Shown here: one piece after another, positions 39,786-48,759 of the stretch
Layout: each line of letters opens with the position of its first letter
How positions within the stretch are numbered: the first letter of the stretch is position 1
NCBI GenBank assembly: GCA_018822665.1
Contig: JAHJJX010000027.1
Span: 310,001-374,000 of the forward strand
DNA length: 64,000 nt
Reading direction: 5' to 3'
Source: a bacterium
GTDB lineage: Bacteria; Campylobacterota; Campylobacteria; Campylobacterales; Sulfurimonadaceae
Notes under the pieces: generated by a model
What the model was told of the DNA's origin: nothing
Seen by the model: the letters and a program-made list of their open reading frames with translations, nothing else
The model's database searches: none
Position numbers and translations under genes: made by a program

Positions 39786-40130
39786 TCACTCTTCCAACTC
39801 AAGTTGCATAAGATACATATCTTCTCCATCCAGTATATCAAGGTCTACACTTTGACAAGCAGGACAGCTGTATTCTAATTTTTGAAGAGTTGATTTGTCT
39901 AAACATTTATTGCATTTTACAACAATAGGCTGAATATTCATCACAAATTCCGCACTATCACAAATAGTTTTCTCCTTAAAAGTATCAAATGCGCTTTGAA
40001 GCAACTCCGGCTCCACTCCGCTCATCACACCGATTTTTACAACAACTTTGCTGACTTTAGTTGCATTGTTTACTTTTGCATTTTCTTCACATGCATCTAA
40101 AAGTGACTGGACAATACTATATTCATGCAT
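39786..40130 (-). CDS. hypA: Hydrogenase/urease nickel incorporation protein HypA
   Basis: Nickel chaperone for NiFe-hydrogenase (and, in some relatives, urease). 114 residues; nickel ligand His2 with Glu3 in MHEYSIV, zinc site CNKC and CPAC near the C-terminus. Starts directly after the hypX stop; last gene of the maturation operon. Confidence 0.95.
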
Positions 40131-41777
40131 TCATACTTCCTTTAATCTTTTTGGTGTCTGCATCGGGCATACTTTATAAACAAAATCATGTCGCAACTTA
40201 TGAAACAGACTCTCTTTATCCCAAAACTCCGGATACATCACTTTTATTTCACTCTCTTTACACTCGTTTATAAACTCTCTATTTTCTTGCAAGTAGTCTT
40301 GCTTGCTATAGAGAAAGTCATCATATTTATCTTCATTTTCTACTAATTTCTGTAAAAAATTTCTAAGCTCTTCAAAATAGTTCTCTTTTTCAAATACCTC
40401 ATCAATCATACCAATCTCTTTCGCTTTGTGAGCATTGATAGGCAGACAATTATTAAGTAGTTTTTCTGCCTTTTGCGCACCCACTCTTTTTGGCAAAGTG
40501 TAAGTGTGATATTCACTCCCACTCAGACCTATTGTTTTATAGTGAGGGTTTAAAACAGTGTTTCCACATGCCAAGACATAGTCACAAGCTAATGCCAAAA
40601 ATACTCCGCCGGCTCCGGCATTTTTATGGAGTGAGGCAACCGTAATCACTTCATCAGCAAATAAAATAGACTTTATCAAATCATTCATCGCATTAATGTT
40701 ACTCCAGCCATCCTCGCCCTGCTTTTGAGAATCTTCAAGAATATTCAGATGAATTCCATTACTAAAAAACTCTTCTGCTCCCATAAGTACAATCACTTTA
40801 GCACTCTCTTGGAGATATTCAAAAGCATACTTTAGCCTTATGCACTGCTCAGCACCCATTGCCCCATTGTGAAAATTAAAATATAGATACGCCACGTCAC
40901 CATCTTTGTGTGAGCTAATTTCATAAAATGTTTTGTAACTCATGTCAAAGAGCAGAGGAAGCCTATCTTCTTTTACACCTTTAATTTTCTCTTTCAAAAC
41001 ATAGGTAGCAGGAAGCTTAAACTTGCCTATTTCTTGGAGATGACTTATCCAGATAGCTCCATCCACTGTGCCTATACAAACAGCGCCGTCTCTTTTAGCA
41101 ATAATCTCTTTTGGGCTACCTTTTAATTTGTCTTCTTGCCACGCGCCAAAGAGATAACACTCTACTTCAAGCAACGTTTCTCGAACACCGGGAAAACTGT
41201 CGCTGAGGCTAATCTTTTTTATTATCTCTTTTGTACTATCTTTTTGCCAATCTATGGCTCTATCTTCTTGAGTCAGATAATAATGCATCGCAGCTTTTAG
41301 CTGCGGAGTTGGCTGAAACTCTTGATTATCCAAATTTCTCAACAGTTCTTTGAGTGCATCTGAAGCGGCATCTGCGACCTCAGCTCTATATATGGAAGCC
41401 TTCGTAGCATCTCTCATCTCAAATCTTACTTCGCTGTATATTTCTCCGCTATCAAACTCTTCATTGGCTTTGAGTATGACAACTCCCCACTCCTTTCTCT
41501 CATCCCGCAGGGCATGGTCTATTGCGTTATGACCTCTGTCTCCTCGGATGCCTGGATGAAGTATAAATGTAGGCGTTTTGAGAAATATCTCTTTGGGAAT
41601 AAACTTTTTCAAATAAGGGCAGAAGATAATGTCAGGCTGAAACCGCTCTACTTCGTCTAGCATCGTTTTATCATTTATGGCAAACTCTACAGACACGGTG
41701 TGATTCATCTCTTTAAGTTCACAATAGATTCTCTGCGTAAGAGAGTTAAAGGCAGATACGAGCAGAAGTATTTTCAT
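40131..41777 (-). CDS. hypX: Hydrogenase maturation factor HypX (HoxX)
   Basis: Makes the active-site CO ligand from a one-carbon (formyl) unit, a route used by hydrogenases working in the presence of oxygen. About 548 residues. The N-terminal formyltransferase-like domain has HPGIRGDRGHNAIDHAL, the C-terminal enoyl-CoA-hydratase-like domain has GAGGVFLALACDYVLA. The ATG at 41777 is preferred to the upstream GTG at 41807 because MKILLLVSAFNSLTQR is the usual N-terminus and the latter overlaps hypE. Contains TTCCACATGCC at 40562-40572 (LACGN). Confidence 0.9.
   Translation of the reverse strand: MKILLLVSAFNSLTQRIYCELKEMNHTVSVEFAINDKTMLDEVERFQPDIIFCPYLKKFIPKEIFLKTPTFILHPGIRGDRGHNAIDHALRDERKEWGVVILKANEEFDSGEIYSEVRFEMRDATKASIYRAEVADAASDALKELLRNLDNQEFQPTPQLKAAMHYYLTQEDRAIDWQKDSTKEIIKKISLSDSFPGVRETLLEVECYLFGAWQEDKLKGSPKEIIAKRDGAVCIGTVDGAIWISHLQEIGKFKLPATYVLKEKIKGVKEDRLPLLFDMSYKTFYEISSHKDGDVAYLYFNFHNGAMGAEQCIRLKYAFEYLQESAKVIVLMGAEEFFSNGIHLNILEDSQKQGEDGWSNINAMNDLIKSILFADEVITVASLHKNAGAGGVFLALACDYVLACGNTVLNPHYKTIGLSGSEYHTYTLPKRVGAQKAEKLLNNCLPINAHKAKEIGMIDEVFEKENYFEELRNFLQKLVENEDKYDDFLYSKQDYLQENREFINECKESEIKVMYPEFWDKESLFHKLRHDFVYKVCPMQTPKRLKEV
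40562..40572 (+). repeat. TTCCACATGCC word
   Basis: Exact copy in hypX, opposite to the gene, read as LACGN; matches the extended form ending AAG. Confidence 0.85.
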
Positions 41778-41781
41778 CTCT

Positions 41782-42780
41782 TTAGCAGATTCTAGGAAGT
41801 AACTCACCGCTTGGAGTATCTAAAAATCTTTTTGTTCCCCAACTGCTGTTTAAAATCACTTTTTTCAAATGTGCATCTGTCACATTGGCGATAATCGTTG
41901 CCCTTGAACAGTTCTCAAATGTTTTTAAAATTTCTATCGCCCTATGGGCATCTTCTTTTTTAACAGCCAATACAAAAGTACCCTCATTCGCCAAAGCAGC
42001 TGCTTCAAAACCAAGCATTTCACAAATACCCTTTACCTCATCGCTCACAGGAATTTTTTCCTCTTCGACCTCGATACAGACATTCGACTGTTTCGCCCAC
42101 TCATTTAAAACAGCACTTACCCCGCCTCTCGTTGCATCTCGCATGGCAGTTATTTTTATCTCGGCATCCAAAAGAGCTTTTACCTGAGGAAAAAGTGACT
42201 CACAATCACTTTTAAGCGGACTACTCATCTCAATACCCTCACGCGCAGCAAAGATAGTAGCACCGTGACAACCGATATCACGGTTTACAAGAATCAAGTC
42301 ATCTTCACTGATATTGTTAGAGCTGATTCCTTTTTTGAGAACTTCACCGATTCCGCTTGTGTTGATAAAAATTTTATCTACACTTCCGCGCGGGACAACC
42401 TTGGTATCGCCACTTACAACAATCGCACCATTAATTGCAAGCTCTTGTTTCATACTTCGCACAATCCGCTCAAGCTCTCTCGTCTCAAACCCCTCTTCTA
42501 TAATCACACTGCAAGTAAGGTACTTCGGTTGCGCACCCATCATAGCAAGGTCATTACACGTCCCGCAAACCGCCAACTTACCTATGTCAGCCCCCGGGAA
42601 AAACAGAGGCGAAACGGTAAAACTATCAGTAGAAAAAGCCAAAGCACCACCATGAATAATCGCCGCATCTTCACTCTTCTCTAAAATCTCGTTTTTAAAA
42701 GCCTTGTAAAACACGCTAGAGATAAGTTCATTATTCTCCTCTCCACCGTTTCCACATGCCAAGGTTACTGTTTTGTTCAT
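41782..42780 (-). CDS. hypE: Hydrogenase maturation protein HypE (carbamoyl dehydratase)
   Basis: Turns the HypF-transferred carbamoyl group into the cyanide ligand on its C-terminal cysteine. 332 residues; ends PRIC, the canonical reactive tail. ATP-binding AIR-synthase-like fold with GDTKVVPRG and MRDATRGGVSAVLNEWA. The start MNKTVTLACGNGGEEN is matched by a degenerate copy at 43732. A 100-base gap separates it from hepT. Its first codons contain a motif copy (42750-42760). Confidence 0.96.
   Translation of the reverse strand: MNKTVTLACGNGGEENNELISSVFYKAFKNEILEKSEDAAIIHGGALAFSTDSFTVSPLFFPGADIGKLAVCGTCNDLAMMGAQPKYLTCSVIIEEGFETRELERIVRSMKQELAINGAIVVSGDTKVVPRGSVDKIFINTSGIGEVLKKGISSNNISEDDLILVNRDIGCHGATIFAAREGIEMSSPLKSDCESLFPQVKALLDAEIKITAMRDATRGGVSAVLNEWAKQSNVCIEVEEEKIPVSDEVKGICEMLGFEAAALANEGTFVLAVKKEDAHRAIEILKTFENCSRATIIANVTDAHLKKVILNSSWGTKRFLDTPSGELLPRIC
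42750..42760 (+). repeat. TTCCACATGCC word at hypE start
   Basis: Exact copy within hypE codons 7-11, matching TTTCCACATGCCAAG in full. Forms an inverted pair with 42867-42877. Confidence 0.85.
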
Positions 42781-42866
42781 CTATTTTTCCTATTTAAAAA
42801 TCTTGACTTGTTCTATTTTATCGGTTAAAATCGTATCGCGAACAAAAAACCGTCTGTGAAATCTTT

Positions 42867-42880: not shown

Positions 42881-43300
42881 TCATAATCTTAAATATGCCA
42901 AATCTTCGTAATATTCACTCTTTAACGCTTCGTCAATATAAATTTTATGATTTTCTATTTTTGGTAACATCTCAATAAGCATTTTTTTTAAAGTCGGCAA
43001 ATAGTTTTGGATGATATCCCAAACCATGCTTTCATCTATGCCTCTGTAATTATGTGAGATTTTATCTCTCATAGCCGAGATACTTTTCCAACTGAGGGCA
43101 TCGGAACTCTTAAGAGCATCATCAATCTTTTTATTTTCTTCGCCTATAGCAATAAGCAAATTAACTGTTGCGTTGAAATTGAGCTGTTTATTTGCATAAA
43201 AAAACTTTTCTTCATCCTCAAAATCCTTAGAGTAGTAAAAAATCTTCTCTATCGCTTCAAGAATAGTCAAAATATAAGTTATATTTTTACTGCTAAACAT
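42881..43300 (-). CDS. hepT: HepT-like HEPN RNase toxin
   Basis: About 139 residues from the preferred ATG at 43300, where ATGTTTAG overlaps the mntA stop by 8 bases; a longer frame would start at 43324. The HEPN active-site motif R-x4-H-x-Y is intact in RDKISHNY. In characterised MntA-HepT pairs HepT cleaves RNA and is silenced by AMPylation of the tyrosine by MntA. Here the pair lies after mcrB in the hyp operon. Confidence 0.85.
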   Translation of the reverse strand: MFSSKNITYILTILEAIEKIFYYSKDFEDEEKFFYANKQLNFNATVNLLIAIGEENKKIDDALKSSDALSWKSISAMRDKISHNYRGIDESMVWDIIQNYLPTLKKMLIEMLPKIENHKIYIDEALKSEYYEDLAYLRL

Positions 43301-43577
43301 AGATAAAATCCTCTTTTGCATCAAACTTTATAAGAGGATTGAGTTTTTTAAAATTCATTAAATCCACTTTGGCTTCTAAGCTTTTGGATAATTCTTCTTC
43401 AAGTTTTAAGTATCTCTCAAAACTCATCTTAGAACCCTTTTCTAGGATATAAGCTATATCAATATCGCTATCTTGATGGTTCATATCCTTAGCAAAAGAG
43501 CCAAAAAGAACAAATTGACTAATGTTAAAATCGCTCTTTTTATCTTTTAAAACATTTAAAATTTCATTTTTATTCAT
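43293..43577 (-). CDS. mntA: MntA-like nucleotidyltransferase antitoxin
   Basis: About 94 residues. Minimal nucleotidyltransferase motif GSFAKDMNHQDSDIDI has the GS-x10-DxD pattern for metal and nucleotide binding. The start at 43577 is supported by AAGGAG 7 bases upstream; the longer frame to 43616 adds an unrelated N-terminus. Its ATGA overlaps the stop of the degenerate hypE copy. Expected to AMPylate HepT. Confidence 0.85.
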   Translation of the reverse strand: MNKNEILNVLKDKKSDFNISQFVLFGSFAKDMNHQDSDIDIAYILEKGSKMSFERYLKLEEELSKSLEAKVDLMNFKKLNPLIKFDAKEDFIYV

Positions 43578-43732
43578 CCGTTGTCTCCTTGATGTATTAT
43601 ATCTTTTACTGTGCAAGAGTGACTTACTCTCATCTGAACTTTAGCCCAAAATAGCTTCGTATGAATTAGTGTAGCCAAACTAGTACTCTTCTCTTCAGCA
43701 TTTCCACATGCCAAGGTTATTGTTTTAGTCAT
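43574..43732 (-). pseudogene. hypE: Degenerate duplicate of the hypE 5' end
   Basis: A 52-codon frame starting MTKTITLACGNAEEK, against MNKTVTLACGNGGEE of hypE. About the first 36 bases match hypE with few changes, including 15 of 18 bases before the shared motif word; after that the similarity fades, with hints of a shifted match around YKAF. The ATG overlaps the mcrB stop by 8 bases (ATGACTAA) and the TGA overlaps mntA. It may still be translated as a coupling leader. It marks the place where foreign genes entered the hypD-hypE interval. Confidence 0.65.
43702..43712 (+). repeat. TTCCACATGCC word in hypE remnant
   Basis: Exact copy at the same place in the degenerate hypE 5' end as in hypE itself. 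Confidence 0.85.
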
Positions 43733-45251
43733 TTATATTTTCTGATTTTAAAATATTGAGTGCAAGATTTAATTTAGCATTATCCACATAAAAATATTCT
43801 TCCAAAAGTGGCTTGATTTTGTACTCTTTTACAAACTCCAAATCTTCATCATTTGCAACATTCATAAAATAACTATGTCCGAGTTTATAATCTTCGTTTA
43901 AATTCTCAGCTATAAATATATTGAGCTTGTTAAATAATTCTTTGGCATGTGGAAATGATACAAGTTCAACATTAGGCTTCATTTTCAAAAATGTAAATCT
44001 TCGTCTGAGTGCGATATCTATGGTCGCTATGGATTTGTCGGTAGAGTTCATTGTGGCGATGATGTAGAGGTTTGAAGGTACTTTGAACTTCTCTTTTGAA
44101 TAGGGAAGTGTCACTTCGTAAACATCTCTTTTATCCTCTTCTATAAGTGTGATTAACTCACCGAAGATTTTAGAAATATTGCCTCTGTTTATTTCGTCTA
44201 TGACTATGTAGAAGTTTTTTTGTTCATTGTATTCAACTTCATTTACGATATTATTGCATATAGCATAAAGGATTGAGTTGTAGCCATACATGTACTTATC
44301 AAAGCTAGTATCTATATTTTCTAAATTTCTATTTTTTATATCTTCTAATGTAATGGTTGAATTTTTTATATTTTCAATTAGTTCAACTACTAACTTTTTT
44401 GGCATTGGAACAATTCTATTGTCTTTTTCTTTTTTTATATTTATTAAATCTGATGTTACACTTTCAATTATATAAGTGCTTCTATCTGATTTAATTTCTC
44501 TCCCAATTGACATTGTCTTATTAATGTTTATTTTGCCAAAAGCTTTTGTAGATATTGTTTTAAATATCCCATCTTCAAGCTCGATATTCCCACTCTCATT
44601 CGGTCGAAAACCCTCTATGAAGTCCTCATAAGAGTAGCTTTGATGAAAGGTTACAAACTCTACTCTTTTTTCTTGTTTTATGCTCTCATATATTTCGTTC
44701 TCTAATTCCACATGCCGATTTTCTGAGATAGTATCGAATATCTCTTTTTGACCTTTACCCTCTTCTATCATGGATATTAGGTTTTTATAGTTGTGAGTTT
44801 TTCCGACTCCTGGAGCGCCATAGAGGATTATGTTTTTGATACTTAGCATATTTTGATTCCCTTTATTTATCTCATTCTCTATCATAGCTTCGTTACTTCT
44901 ACCTGTAATATTTTTATAATATTTTTTATGTAATTCCAGAGATTTTTTTGCATTTTGACAAATACTTTCGCCAAAATCACTACATAAATGTTCAATAAAA
45001 TAGTGTTCAGAAAATTTATTTATAGTTCTTGCGAATTGCTGTCCCTTTATCATATATACCAAATTGTTGAGATAGTCGGTTAAACTTGCAATATTCCACT
45101 CAAACTTATTTTCAAGTTTTATAATTTTTACAATTTCTTCAACAATATGCTTTTGTGTTAATTCTAAAAAATTATTTTGATTTTCTTGATAATATTTTTT
45201 AAATTTAGAATATACATCTTTTATATGCTCATTGGTTATTTTTTTATTCAT
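43725..45251 (-). CDS. mcrB: McrB-like AAA+ GTPase of a McrBC-type modification-dependent restriction system
   Basis: 508 residues. N-terminal 150 residues, divergent and probably DNA-recognising; Walker A YGAPGVGKTHN (about 155), VTFHQSYSYEDFIEGFRP, Walker B FYIVIDEINRGN, signature MNSTDKSIATIDIALRRRF. In E. coli, McrB hydrolyses GTP to drive McrC cleavage of methylated DNA. It follows mcrC (overlap of 4 bases), the reverse of the usual order. Contains two exact motif copies (43944, 44706). Confidence 0.88.
   Translation of the reverse strand: MNKKITNEHIKDVYSKFKKYYQENQNNFLELTQKHIVEEIVKIIKLENKFEWNIASLTDYLNNLVYMIKGQQFARTINKFSEHYFIEHLCSDFGESICQNAKKSLELHKKYYKNITGRSNEAMIENEINKGNQNMLSIKNIILYGAPGVGKTHNYKNLISMIEEGKGQKEIFDTISENRHVELENEIYESIKQEKRVEFVTFHQSYSYEDFIEGFRPNESGNIELEDGIFKTISTKAFGKININKTMSIGREIKSDRSTYIIESVTSDLINIKKEKDNRIVPMPKKLVVELIENIKNSTITLEDIKNRNLENIDTSFDKYMYGYNSILYAICNNIVNEVEYNEQKNFYIVIDEINRGNISKIFGELITLIEEDKRDVYEVTLPYSKEKFKVPSNLYIIATMNSTDKSIATIDIALRRRFTFLKMKPNVELVSFPHAKELFNKLNIFIAENLNEDYKLGHSYFMNVANDEDLEFVKEYKIKPLLEEYFYVDNAKLNLALNILKSENIND
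43944..43954 (-). repeat. TTCCACATGCC word
   Basis: Exact copy in mcrB, read as FPHAK. Confidence 0.85.
44706..44716 (+). repeat. TTCCACATGCC word
   Basis: Exact copy in mcrB, opposite to the gene, read as RHVEL, a different frame from the PHA copies. Confidence 0.85.
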
Positions 45252-46387
45252 CTTAATTCTCCTATTCTATTTTTAATCTCTTCCATAAACTCACTATACC
45301 CACCATCAAATCCCAAATCAATACTCTTAATCTTCAAACCAATTTCCCTCTCATCTTTACCTAAACGCATTTCATAATCAAAATGCTCCAAGTGTTTAGG
45401 ATACAAAAGCATCGTATTTTTAATCCCAAAGTTTGTCCCATAGACAAACATCTGGTACTTGTCGTTTGTTGCCAAATCATCTTTAGTTTTTAAAATTTTA
45501 TACTTTGTGTCTATTATCATGTTTGTCGTTATTATGTCGGGTTTTAACTGTAAGTTGCCAAAATTTTTCTGGTTTTGCAGTTTTGTATTTGGGTCTAACT
45601 CTTTAAAAATTCGCCCAATAAATTTCTCAAACAACTCATTCATATCAAACAAAAACGCAAAACTTTTTTTATCTTTTGCGAAGAGTGGAATAGACTTGCT
45701 CAAAAGTAAAAGTGCAAACTCAAAACTCTCTTTGTATCTGGCATTGAGCCTATGAAAATGAATGCTCAAATAATTAATATCAAAACTTTTAATCTCCACT
45801 TCATCAAGTGCGATTTCACATGCCATTAAAAGGCGTTTATCTTTAGCAAAAAGCATAAGAGATTTTACGGCATAAAGAAAAAATTGATTAAGCTCGTTGT
45901 TCATGCTGAACTCATCATATTCGCAATAGATTTTGTTTTTTATATGGTTGGTTTTGAGATTTTCATTGATGAGATATTTGCCTCTGAGTGTTGTGAGGTT
46001 CTCTTGCTCGGTAATGTACTCTTTGTAGATTCCCTGCTGTAACTCGGCAAACAATTTTTTTGCATAGAGCTGGATGAAAACTTCTAAAATCGTGTGACTC
46101 TCATTTTGGCATGTGGAAATATCTTCGTTTTGAAGTTTGATATCATAAGCGTACATAAGCATATAGATAAAAGTATTTAAATTTTGCTTTTCGTCGTTGT
46201 CTTTGTTACTTATCTTGGGAAGCAAATAAAAATCTTCCCCTTCAAAGTTTAGTATTCCACAATATTGACGTGATTTTAATATATTCCAATCGAGTTTGAA
46301 ATACTTATGAAGTGCAGGCGTGTTTATAATATATAGCTTTAATTTCTCATGTGTTACTTCGCTATATTCATATATTATATTTAACAT
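45248..46387 (-). CDS. mcrC: McrC-like nuclease subunit
   Basis: 379 residues. An N-terminal beta region (YFKLDWNILKSRQYCGILNF) is followed by helices and a PD-(D/E)xK core seen as KPDIITTNMIIDTKYK. Partner of McrB; cuts DNA when activated. First of the two mcr genes, 34 bases after the CHAD-SixA gene. Carries an exact motif copy (46108-46118, STCQ) and a one-base variant (45814). Confidence 0.85.
   Translation of the reverse strand: MLNIIYEYSEVTHEKLKLYIINTPALHKYFKLDWNILKSRQYCGILNFEGEDFYLLPKISNKDNDEKQNLNTFIYMLMYAYDIKLQNEDISTCQNESHTILEVFIQLYAKKLFAELQQGIYKEYITEQENLTTLRGKYLINENLKTNHIKNKIYCEYDEFSMNNELNQFFLYAVKSLMLFAKDKRLLMACEIALDEVEIKSFDINYLSIHFHRLNARYKESFEFALLLLSKSIPLFAKDKKSFAFLFDMNELFEKFIGRIFKELDPNTKLQNQKNFGNLQLKPDIITTNMIIDTKYKILKTKDDLATNDKYQMFVYGTNFGIKNTMLLYPKHLEHFDYEMRLGKDEREIGLKIKSIDLGFDGGYSEFMEEIKNRIGELR
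46108..46118 (-). repeat. TTCCACATGCC word
   Basis: Exact copy in mcrC, read as STCQ. Confidence 0.85.
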
Positions 46388-46421: not shown

Positions 46422-47606
46422 TCACTTCTCTTTTTTCGGATAATCAAACGAAAGCAACCTTGCATTTTTAGCACTTATATCTGTCCAACTATCGCAGTCA
46501 AACTCTATCTCAACAATTCCACATGTCGGGATGTTTTCATTCAGATTTATATACTTTTGAGCTAACTCATTCAAGCTAGGATTATGCCCGAACAAAAATA
46601 CGACCCTGTTTTCATCATCTATTTCACTCACTATTTTATGAAGTTCATTCACGCTTGATTCATAAATATTTTCATCAAACACAATCTCTTTTTCAAACTC
46701 TATTTTTTTTGTAATTATCTCTGCCGTAGTTTTGGCTCTTAGTGCAGGACTTGACAATATTAGGTCGGGCATCACTCTTTTTTCTTTGAGTTTGCTTCCC
46801 ATCAAAGGAGCATCTGCTTTACCTCTTTTGTTTAAAGGTCTCTCAAAATCATCCAGTGAACTCTCTTTCCAGCTTGATTTTGCATGTCTGATTATGTAGA
46901 GTTTTTTCATGAAAGGGCCTTTGTTTACTTTTTGATTCAAATCTTTAAATTGTTTAAATAGTTTGAGATTTTGCTTTTGGGTGAACTTTTCTATTTTTTT
47001 AAGCAGTTTATCTTGTATATCAAAACTGCTTAATTCTTTCACTCCGTTATAGTTGTCATTGATAGTGCCTAAAATATCTTTTATTTTGCTCAGCGTTTTA
47101 ATCTTTTTTTCATCTTTAGAAGAACTGTTTTTTTCTATGAACAATATTTTTTTTATATAAATTCTATACACATGCAACTCTTCTTTATCTAACTTTACTT
47201 CCTCGCTATTCATCATATCCATCTCTTGAATCTCATGATGAAACTCTGCACTCTCTGGTACAACTAAAGTTTTTAAATAATGATGCAGTTTATCTATCTC
47301 TTTTTTTCTACGTTCATTAACAGAGTTTATTATACTTGCTGTGTCCATTTTTTTGAGATATTTTTTTGGTAAAGATTTGAGGTAAGTCTCAGAAAATACA
47401 TCAATATCTCTTACTTTATTACTTGTTTTTATAACTTTTTTTACTATTTTAGAAAAAGGTTCATCACTTTGCAGTAATGAGAAAAGCTCTCTGCATATCA
47501 CTCTGAGCTCATGAATCTCTTCAATGCTCTCTTTATGATGTTTTAGAAAATTTTTAACATATTTTTTAAACTCTTTTAGTTTTTTGAGCCACTCTGTATT
47601 TTCCAT
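46422..47606 (-). CDS. CHAD domain fused to SixA-like phosphohistidine phosphatase
   Basis: 394 residues. Residues 1-230 or so are a CHAD helical domain (IHELRVICRELFSLL, NKVRDIDVFSETYL), a fold that binds polyphosphate. From about 232 (MKKLYIIRHAKSSW) it is a SixA histidine phosphatase with the catalytic RHA, LTSRALRAKTT-type SSPALRAKTTAEII, and FGHNPSLNEL. No stop or frameshift separates the parts. Both modules concern phosphate, so a polyphosphate-linked or phosphohistidine role is conceivable. Begins 10 bases after hypD and 34 before mcrC; it may be native to the locus or part of the insertion. Confidence 0.85.
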   Translation of the reverse strand: MENTEWLKKLKEFKKYVKNFLKHHKESIEEIHELRVICRELFSLLQSDEPFSKIVKKVIKTSNKVRDIDVFSETYLKSLPKKYLKKMDTASIINSVNERRKKEIDKLHHYLKTLVVPESAEFHHEIQEMDMMNSEEVKLDKEELHVYRIYIKKILFIEKNSSSKDEKKIKTLSKIKDILGTINDNYNGVKELSSFDIQDKLLKKIEKFTQKQNLKLFKQFKDLNQKVNKGPFMKKLYIIRHAKSSWKESSLDDFERPLNKRGKADAPLMGSKLKEKRVMPDLILSSPALRAKTTAEIITKKIEFEKEIVFDENIYESSVNELHKIVSEIDDENRVVFLFGHNPSLNELAQKYINLNENIPTCGIVEIEFDCDSWTDISAKNARLLSFDYPKKEK

Positions 47607-47616
47607 AATATTTCAC

Positions 47617-48759
47617 CTACAAAAGATTTCCATATTTATAGTACGCTGCACATGCACCTTCGCTGCTTACCATACAACTACCTATCGGACTTGTGGGTTT
47701 ACATGCGGTTCCAAAAATAGTACACTCTGGCGGATTTGCCATTCCTCTTAAAATATCTCCACAGATACAGAGTTTATGGTCTTCTATCTCTTGAAGCGGC
47801 AGAACTTCTTTGTAAATCACTTCTGCATCATAGGCTTTAAACTCTGCTTTGAGTTTGAGTCCGCTTTTTGGTATATTGCCAAGACCTCTCCATTTAAAAA
47901 GGTCTGTTTTTTCAAAGTACCTGTTTACCAGCTCTTGGGCTTTTATATTTCCATCGTAGGTCACAAGTCTTTTGTACTCTACTTCAAGCTCACATCTGCC
48001 TTCTATAAACTGCTTTACTATCATGCTTATTGCCTGCATAACATCCACAGGTTCAAACCCTGCAACAACAACAGGACGATTATAGTCTCTTGGAAACTCT
48101 TCATAAATTTTGCTTCCGCTTATTACGCTTACATGCGAGGGTCCAAGGAATGCGTCTATTTTATTGTTGTAACTGTCAACATGAATATCTCTGGAATCTA
48201 TAAGCTCTTTCATAACCTCTGGAACTGTTACGTGGTTTATATGAAAGAGAACATTTTTCATATCTTGTTTTATCACTGCATCAAGAAGTGCGGCGGTCAT
48301 CGGGGTTGTGGTTTCAAAACCAATGGCAAAGAAAATGACCTTTTTTGACAGATTCTCTTTTGCAATTTTCAGACAATCAAGTGGAGAGTAAACAAAACGT
48401 ACATCCGCTCCCTTACTTCTTGCATCTTGAAGACTTCCGTTGCTTCCCGGTACTTTTATCATATCACCCAAAGTTACGAGAATAACGTCCGGTTGCATAC
48501 TCAAAACATAGGCATGGTCGATTCTCTCTTTTGGCATAATACAAACAGGACAGCCTGGACCATGAATAAATTTGATGTTTACAGGCAGAAGTTGAGGAAT
48601 ACCGTACTTCATAATCGTATGCGTATGTCCTCCGCACACTTCCATGATGTTTATGGCATGTGGAAGTGATTTTGCATCCTCTTTAATGATTCTTGCGTAA
48701 GCTTTTATAGTGTCTGCATCTCTAAAATCATCATAAAGATTTTTAAGTTCGAGTACCAT
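47617..48759 (-). CDS. hypD: Hydrogenase maturation protein HypD
   Basis: Iron-sulfur scaffold where the Fe(CN)2CO unit is assembled with HypC. 380 residues; EVCGGHTH, GPGCPVCIMP, SPLDCLKIA, and the 4Fe-4S segment near the end (ECTIFGTACKP, SEGACAAYYKY). Start overlaps hypC stop by one base. Holds motif copy 48655-48665 (LPHAI). Confidence 0.97.
   Translation of the reverse strand: MVLELKNLYDDFRDADTIKAYARIIKEDAKSLPHAINIMEVCGGHTHTIMKYGIPQLLPVNIKFIHGPGCPVCIMPKERIDHAYVLSMQPDVILVTLGDMIKVPGSNGSLQDARSKGADVRFVYSPLDCLKIAKENLSKKVIFFAIGFETTTPMTAALLDAVIKQDMKNVLFHINHVTVPEVMKELIDSRDIHVDSYNNKIDAFLGPSHVSVISGSKIYEEFPRDYNRPVVVAGFEPVDVMQAISMIVKQFIEGRCELEVEYKRLVTYDGNIKAQELVNRYFEKTDLFKWRGLGNIPKSGLKLKAEFKAYDAEVIYKEVLPLQEIEDHKLCICGDILRGMANPPECTIFGTACKPTSPIGSCMVSSEGACAAYYKYGNLL
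48655..48665 (-). repeat. TTCCACATGCC word
   Basis: Exact copy in hypD, read as LPHAI. Confidence 0.85.

Follow-up and report, generated by a model that had tools for sequence, protein, structure and literature searches.

A probable recombination-fed docking site for accessory genes within the hyp operon of Sulfurimonas-like bacteria

Introduction

Defence islands and hotspots are regions in which variable defence and toxin–antitoxin (TA) content is flanked by fixed core genes. To our knowledge, the movement and expression of defence genes that lack an integrase are poorly understood. The locus reported here lies in a 64 000-nucleotide stretch (the window; G000:C20:310001–374000, assembly GCA_018822665.1) of a 2.5 Mb Sulfurimonadaceae genome; among named organisms, Sulfurimonas and a Lac Pavin Campylobacterales bacterium are its closest relatives. 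In this window a restriction pair, mcrC–mcrB, and a TA pair, mntA–hepT, stand between hypD and hypE of the hydrogenase maturation (hyp) operon. The closest precedent is from the same phylum: in Helicobacter pylori, the insertion of restriction-modification genes was accompanied by a long duplication of the target (Nobusato et al., 2000, cited in PMC3077401 and PMC7494987), so that defence genes occupy a host gene region and a copy of the target is left. Compared with that insertion, the copy at our locus is a 45–77 bp 5′ end of hypE, the target is the junction between two genes of an operon, the same point has been reused across genera by many types of cargo and the copies have diverged (82–88%).

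The locus resembles a defence hotspot in its variable content and fixed flanks, but it lies inside a tight metabolic operon and is strand-locked, and no tRNA, integrase or prophage was seen at the junction. Like integron cassette arrays, the hyp cargo is co-oriented, closely packed and apparently served by an upstream promoter; unlike them, the inserts show no integrase in the subset of proteins scanned, and a core pathway gene closes the downstream end. The two pairs are of described kinds. As in McrBC of Escherichia coli and the archaeal McrB of PDB entry 6ut3 (for McrBC activity, see PMC3874153), an AAA+ GTPase with an MNxxD motif accompanies a PD-(D/E)XK McrC; the window pair differs in that mcrC precedes mcrB and the McrB N-terminus has no DUF3578 match. 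The MntA–HepT (MNT/HEPN) pair, whose chemistry is described in PMC7641770, likewise combines a nucleotidyltransferase antitoxin with a HEPN RNase, retains the catalytic motifs and consists of overlapping genes; it differs from the described pair only in its genomic setting.

In this study, we compare the hypD–hypE junction across relatives and analyse the inserted genes and the traces of their arrival. We consider it probable (about 0.68) that the junction is a docking site within the operon, fed by recombination, for accessory genes that largely belong to defence and TA systems. On this reading, the block in the window is not a one-off accident: it represents one visible layer at a site that has been reused repeatedly. 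A core operon junction seems to offer a slot that already comes with a promoter; its cargo varies across species, and it bears the scars of successive arrivals.

Occupancy of the hypD–hypE junction

Relatives were collected through HypE as two overlapping sets, 60 genomes and 80 named contigs, and occupancy was counted over the 67 named loci with hypD upstream of hypE. The gap between the two genes is at most 60 bp in 28 of these loci, 61–250 bp in five and more than 250 bp in 34, reaching 9.3 kb. Tight loci mostly show a 1 nt overlap or a 2 nt gap, and in the ancestral state the hypD stop and the hypE start lie no more than a few bases apart. The first-pass annotation of the window had proposed an insertion into an ancestrally tight junction, and synteny agrees with this, the junction being intact in 28 of 67 relatives. 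It had also named a layout common to all relatives as the sign of an ancestral arrangement; the layouts instead differ strongly. The preference is for this site: of the control junctions in the same operon, hypB–hypC is interrupted in 1/62 loci and hypC–hypD in 0/63. On a HypE tree for which the first 20 residues were trimmed off, at least 14 changes are needed to explain the interrupted state and seven to explain the presence of mcr, one for each mcr-bearing tip. Even in the nearest relative (HypE 95% identical), CHAD-SixA is retained (83%) while a KAP NTPase and an ORF6N protein replace mcrCB and mntA–hepT. An assembly artefact was ruled out because interrupted junctions also occur in isolates (Arcobacter caeni, Aliarcobacter vitoriensis, Poseidonibacter ostreae and Sulfurimonas indica) and in single-contig genomes. 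A literature search on a hypD–hypE hotspot found nothing relevant.

Orientation, fit and content of the cargo

The 34 inserts contain 107 predicted genes (counted from 70 amino acids upwards), and all 107 run in the hyp direction; in the flanking regions of these loci, which served as the orientation control, 272 of 395 genes are co-oriented (272 plus, 123 minus). The cargo also has fitted ends. The stop of the last cargo gene lies a median of 8.5 bp from the hypE ATG over the 34 inserts, and in 11 of them this gene overlaps the ATG by exactly 4 or 8 nt. Within many inserts the cargo genes themselves overlap by 4–8 nt, which leaves little room for attC recombination sites. No integrase was found among 40 insert proteins that were scanned one by one, or in the top 25 Pfam families over the full set of 107, a search confined to the inserts.

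The content includes Fic (6), McrBC (5), ParE (5), Phd (3) and KAP (4) proteins, Septu-like PtuA/PtuB pairs (4), MazG-like proteins (4), DUF1016 nucleases (3), PemK (2) and KilA-N/ORF6N/Bro-N proteins; His_Phos_1 is present in 11 of the 107 proteins, and SixA/CHAD genes stand at hypD–hypE in L049, L064, L069, L071 and other loci. Among 107 random flank proteins used as a control, each listed PADLOC family was matched by one member, a comparison made at family level. Defence genes are thus enriched at a variable locus flanked by conserved genes, as in a hotspot. A further example is seen in Sulfuricurvum PC08-66 (L095:3360–10008), where hypD and hypE enclose a Wadjet-like SMC set (MksE, DUF3584) together with small proteins that lack Pfam matches.

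Scars and layers in the window

In the window, 4.8 kb separates hypD (47617–48759, minus strand) from intact hypE (41782–42780, minus strand), and the order is CHAD-SixA, mcrC, mcrB, a hypE 5′ remnant, mntA and hepT. Positions 43684–43759 on the minus strand match the start region of intact hypE at 42732–42806 with 82% identity over 76 bp (E = 1.3 × 10⁻¹³); the copied segment covers the mcrB 3′ end and the hypE 5′ end. Direct 76 bp copies therefore lie on both sides of the mntA–hepT insert, as in a long target duplication. The remnant, hypE′, opens at an ATG at 43732 and its protein begins MTKTITLACGN. A hypE remnant had been reported before; it is present, but it comprises only 11–14 codons, and the duplication itself is longer, since it includes the mcrB 3′ end. 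A second hypE start, in each case from the ATG, occurs in three genomes: the window (11–14 codons), L049 (26–31) and Sulfuricurvum L080 (16). The remnant proteins score 70, 137 and 77, respectively, against a background elsewhere of at most 41. No duplication of the hypD 3′ end as clear as the hypE remnants was found. A scar of another kind is preserved in G012, where only 33 codons from the start of a mcrC survive, joined to a sequence that resembles, by eye, the C-terminus of Fic.

The junctions suggest an order of arrival. In the window mcrB overlaps the hypE′ ATG by 8 nt, and because an 8 nt overlap of mcrB with intact hypE recurs in L059 and L110, the mcrB–hypE contact is probably the older junction, with mntA–hepT and the second hypE start arriving later. 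At least two layers would then be present, first CHAD-SixA–mcrC–mcrB with its 8 nt mcrB/hypE overlap and next mntA–hepT with the second hypE start. In the 100 bp between hepT and hypE, matches to cargo proteins did not exceed those of shuffled sequences.

Exchange between species and other docking sites

Some cargo is far more similar between species than their core genes are. In G062, as in the window, mntA–hepT stands directly before hypE; HepT is 96.4% and MntA 83% identical between the two, and HypE 75.9%. The 88% DNA match is limited to 43598–42883 and breaks off sharply at both ends, immediately upstream of mntA on one side and at the stop codon of hepT on the other, whereas hypE DNA matches at 75%; we read this minus-strand unit (42883–43598) as transferred. 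Similarly, DUF1016 is 89% identical between G004 and G062 (HypE 74%), and G089 carries the same mntA–hepT pair (HepT 90%) at another location. The G062 locus (L290; G062:C4:96000–112000) is itself a stack: co-oriented genes fill about 12 kb ahead of hypE and include two different MntA–HepT pairs, a Septu-like pair, DUF1016 and an 1812-amino-acid protein, the families being assigned partly by inspection.

Outside hypD–hypE, mcrC is mostly found between genes for a 781-residue AddB-like and a 905-residue AddA-like protein, or between murG and a DedA-like gene (AddB, AddA, MurG and DedA being labelled by inspection of the sequences); there it is co-oriented and sometimes lies beside another mntA–hepT. 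addB–addA is a second site of the same kind. In the 83 genomes with both genes on one contig the gap is at most 20 bp in 40 and more than 600 bp in 34, and 88 of 101 cargo genes are co-oriented, so that the strand lock at this site is strong but not absolute. The site shares cargo families with hypD–hypE, and a DUF4143 ATPase at one site matches its counterpart at the other with 93.5% identity, against 81.9% for the HypE proteins of the species concerned. Whether hypD–hypE, addB–addA and probably murG–dedA are integrase-free, strand-locked sites across Campylobacterota, drawing on one pool of defence cassettes that would be exchanged between species by operon-flank recombination and expressed from host operons, appears to us evenly balanced.

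The addB–addA junction of the window genome (L213; G000:C43:38917–43466) holds 4.5 kb of cargo and a mcrC start remnant; the cargo encodes a 404-residue ATPase, a 565-residue protein (DUF262 type by inspection) and a RhuM-like protein. In L183 (G101:C35), mcrC–mcrB–VF530–aldo-keto reductase lies upstream of rplU–rpmA–obg, which in the window come after hypA, and no hyp genes are present there; possibly the hyp operon was lost and the cargo left behind.

Mechanism and alternative explanations

Foreign genes may enter the junction through homologous recombination in the core genes on either side; alternatively, homologous recombination on one side may be combined with illegitimate recombination on the other, an event that could leave behind a short duplicate of the former hypE 5′ end, as the remnants suggest. 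Since hypE must stay transcribed, selection would spare only those insertions that keep it so, and the surviving cargo would be co-oriented and end at or in the hypE start codon. The cargo would then be expressed from the hyp transcript. By analogy with their families, McrBC would cleave modified incoming DNA, and HepT and MntA would act as an RNase toxin and an adenylylating antitoxin.

A neutral effect of compact genomes could produce some of this pattern: with few intergenic gaps, insertions would fall within operons everywhere, co-orientation would reflect purging of disruptive insertions and the site would not be special. The presence of the same cargo families in the addB–addA and murG–dedA operons fits such a view, but 34 interrupted hypD–hypE junctions out of 67, against 0/63 and 1/62 at the adjacent junctions, and the closeness of cargo ends to the hypE start make it unlikely. 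Still less can be said for an ancestral block with differential loss, in which the common ancestor carried mcrCB in the operon and deletion removed it from most lineages. The mcrC start remnant in G012 and the occurrence of mcrCB at hypD–hypE in several genera would be expected on that account; however, many unrelated cargoes share one insertion point, mcrCB homologues occupy other sites too, the mcr-bearing tips are scattered (seven changes) and HepT is far more similar than HypE between the window and G062, which together make it very improbable. The first-pass annotation had suggested that defence is tied to hydrogenase expression, and the apparent operon structure, with its overlaps and lack of a terminator, would suit defence genes placed under hydrogenase control for their use during hydrogen oxidation. 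This is the least probable of the alternatives, the cargo being highly diverse, often non-defensive and common to recombination-nuclease and cell-wall operons. A regulatory link between hydrogen and defence is not supported, because mcrCB, mntA–hepT and other cargo families also occupy addB–addA and murG–dedA in other species, nor is it needed.

Several points weigh against the docking-site reading. Many loci come from metagenome assemblies and the loci are not independent of one another. The orientation counts omit minus-strand open reading frames below 100 amino acids, in inserts and flanks alike. As the single scans covered 40 of the 107 insert proteins, an integrase may possibly have been overlooked, and L111/G016 carries a transposase remnant. 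The site is not defence-only, as part of its cargo is metabolic (pyruvate kinase, aldo-keto reductase and, in L109, hydrogenase genes). The window and L069 share SixA–mcrC at about the divergence of HypE (mcrC 82%, HypE 85%), and part of the block may therefore be old rather than newly acquired.

The docking-site reading supplies a search rule, to inspect hypD–hypE and addB–addA intervals for new defence genes. It also makes testable now whether embedding in an operon guards TA and restriction genes against loss; such placement could possibly anchor the TA pair.

Gene layout of the window block

The hyp operon, from hypB (49846) to hypA (39786), is encoded on the minus strand, as are all of the features below. 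mcrC, mcrB, the hypE remnant, mntA, hepT, intact hypE, hypX and hypA were all found in the order first annotated, to which CHAD-SixA, likewise inserted and previously omitted, has to be added. The upstream flank is hypD (PF01924, E = 1.9 × 10⁻¹⁴⁷), and the first cargo gene is CHAD-SixA (46422–47606; PF05235, PF00300), with a histidine phosphatase domain. mcrC (45248–46387; PF10117, E = 2.6 × 10⁻⁵³) encodes the PD-(D/E)XK nuclease subunit, with an intact PD..DTK motif (PDIITTNMIIDTK), and mcrB (43725–45251; AAA_5) the AAA+ GTPase subunit, with intact Walker A (GAPGVGKT), Walker B (YIVIDE) and MNxxD (MNSTD) motifs. The mcrC-first order had been taken as a reversal, but mcrC comes first in 17 of 17 full-length homologues inspected in the genus, that of the window included, and the order is normal for this family. 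The best relatives of known structure are the McrB GTPases 6ut3 and 6hz4. Residues 1–134 of McrB have no Pfam match, hence no DUF3578 modified-base-binding N-terminus as in E. coli; this domain is not universal among McrBC systems and its absence is not decisive for membership.

mntA (43293–43577 from its minimal start; PF18765, PF01909) and the adjacent hepT (42881–43300; PF01934, E = 6.4 × 10⁻¹⁴) retain their GS-x10-DID (GSx10DxD) and R-x4-H motifs. The preferred mntA start, 43577, is preceded by an AAGGAG site, and the preferred hepT start is 43300. A sequence search with HepT gave no relative of solved structure. Within the block, PADLOC matched MntA only as candidate family PDC-S09 and McrB as REase_II, and neither HepT nor McrC. 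The downstream flank consists of intact hypE (PF00586, PF02769), hypX (40131–41807; PF00551, PF00378) and hypA (39786–40130), the last identified from its sequence and alignment to relatives.

As described earlier, starts overlap within the block: mcrC/mcrB by 4 nt, and mcrB/hypE′ and mntA/hepT by 8 nt each. These overlaps, the single strand and the lack of intrinsic-terminator-like sites on the minus strand within the block favour the proposed co-transcription; the DNA is AT-rich and internal promoters may also be present.

An uptake-signal-like repeat

The window genome contains 662 copies of the 11-mer GGCATGTGGAA in its 2.5 Mb, compared with one copy of a reversed-pattern control. In the window it occurs at 18 places (0.01 expected), including 42750–42760, 43702–43712 and 46108–46118, and it extends to (C)TTGGCATGTGGAA. 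It is abundant in a minority of the genus (G127, 946; G133, 907; G094, 595; G110, 573; G097, 535) and near zero in most. The repeat looks like a DNA uptake signal, and a search of the literature gave no relevant paper on a signal of this kind in the genus. The block is dense in it: six copies fall within 3.5 kb, a density in the top 0.27% of windows. It was rejected as the insertion mechanism because it is absent or at background in other cargo. The copy at 42750–42760 corresponds to hypE codons 7–11, which read ACGN here and AQGN, AHGN or AMGN in relatives, suggesting that the uptake-like signal may shape the HypE protein sequence. Other short repeats, distinct from GGCATGTGGAA, are strongly over-represented in two further genomes, a CCCGTCACCCTGA-type in G012 (L250–L255) and a CTACATGTAGA-type in G032 (L256–L261).

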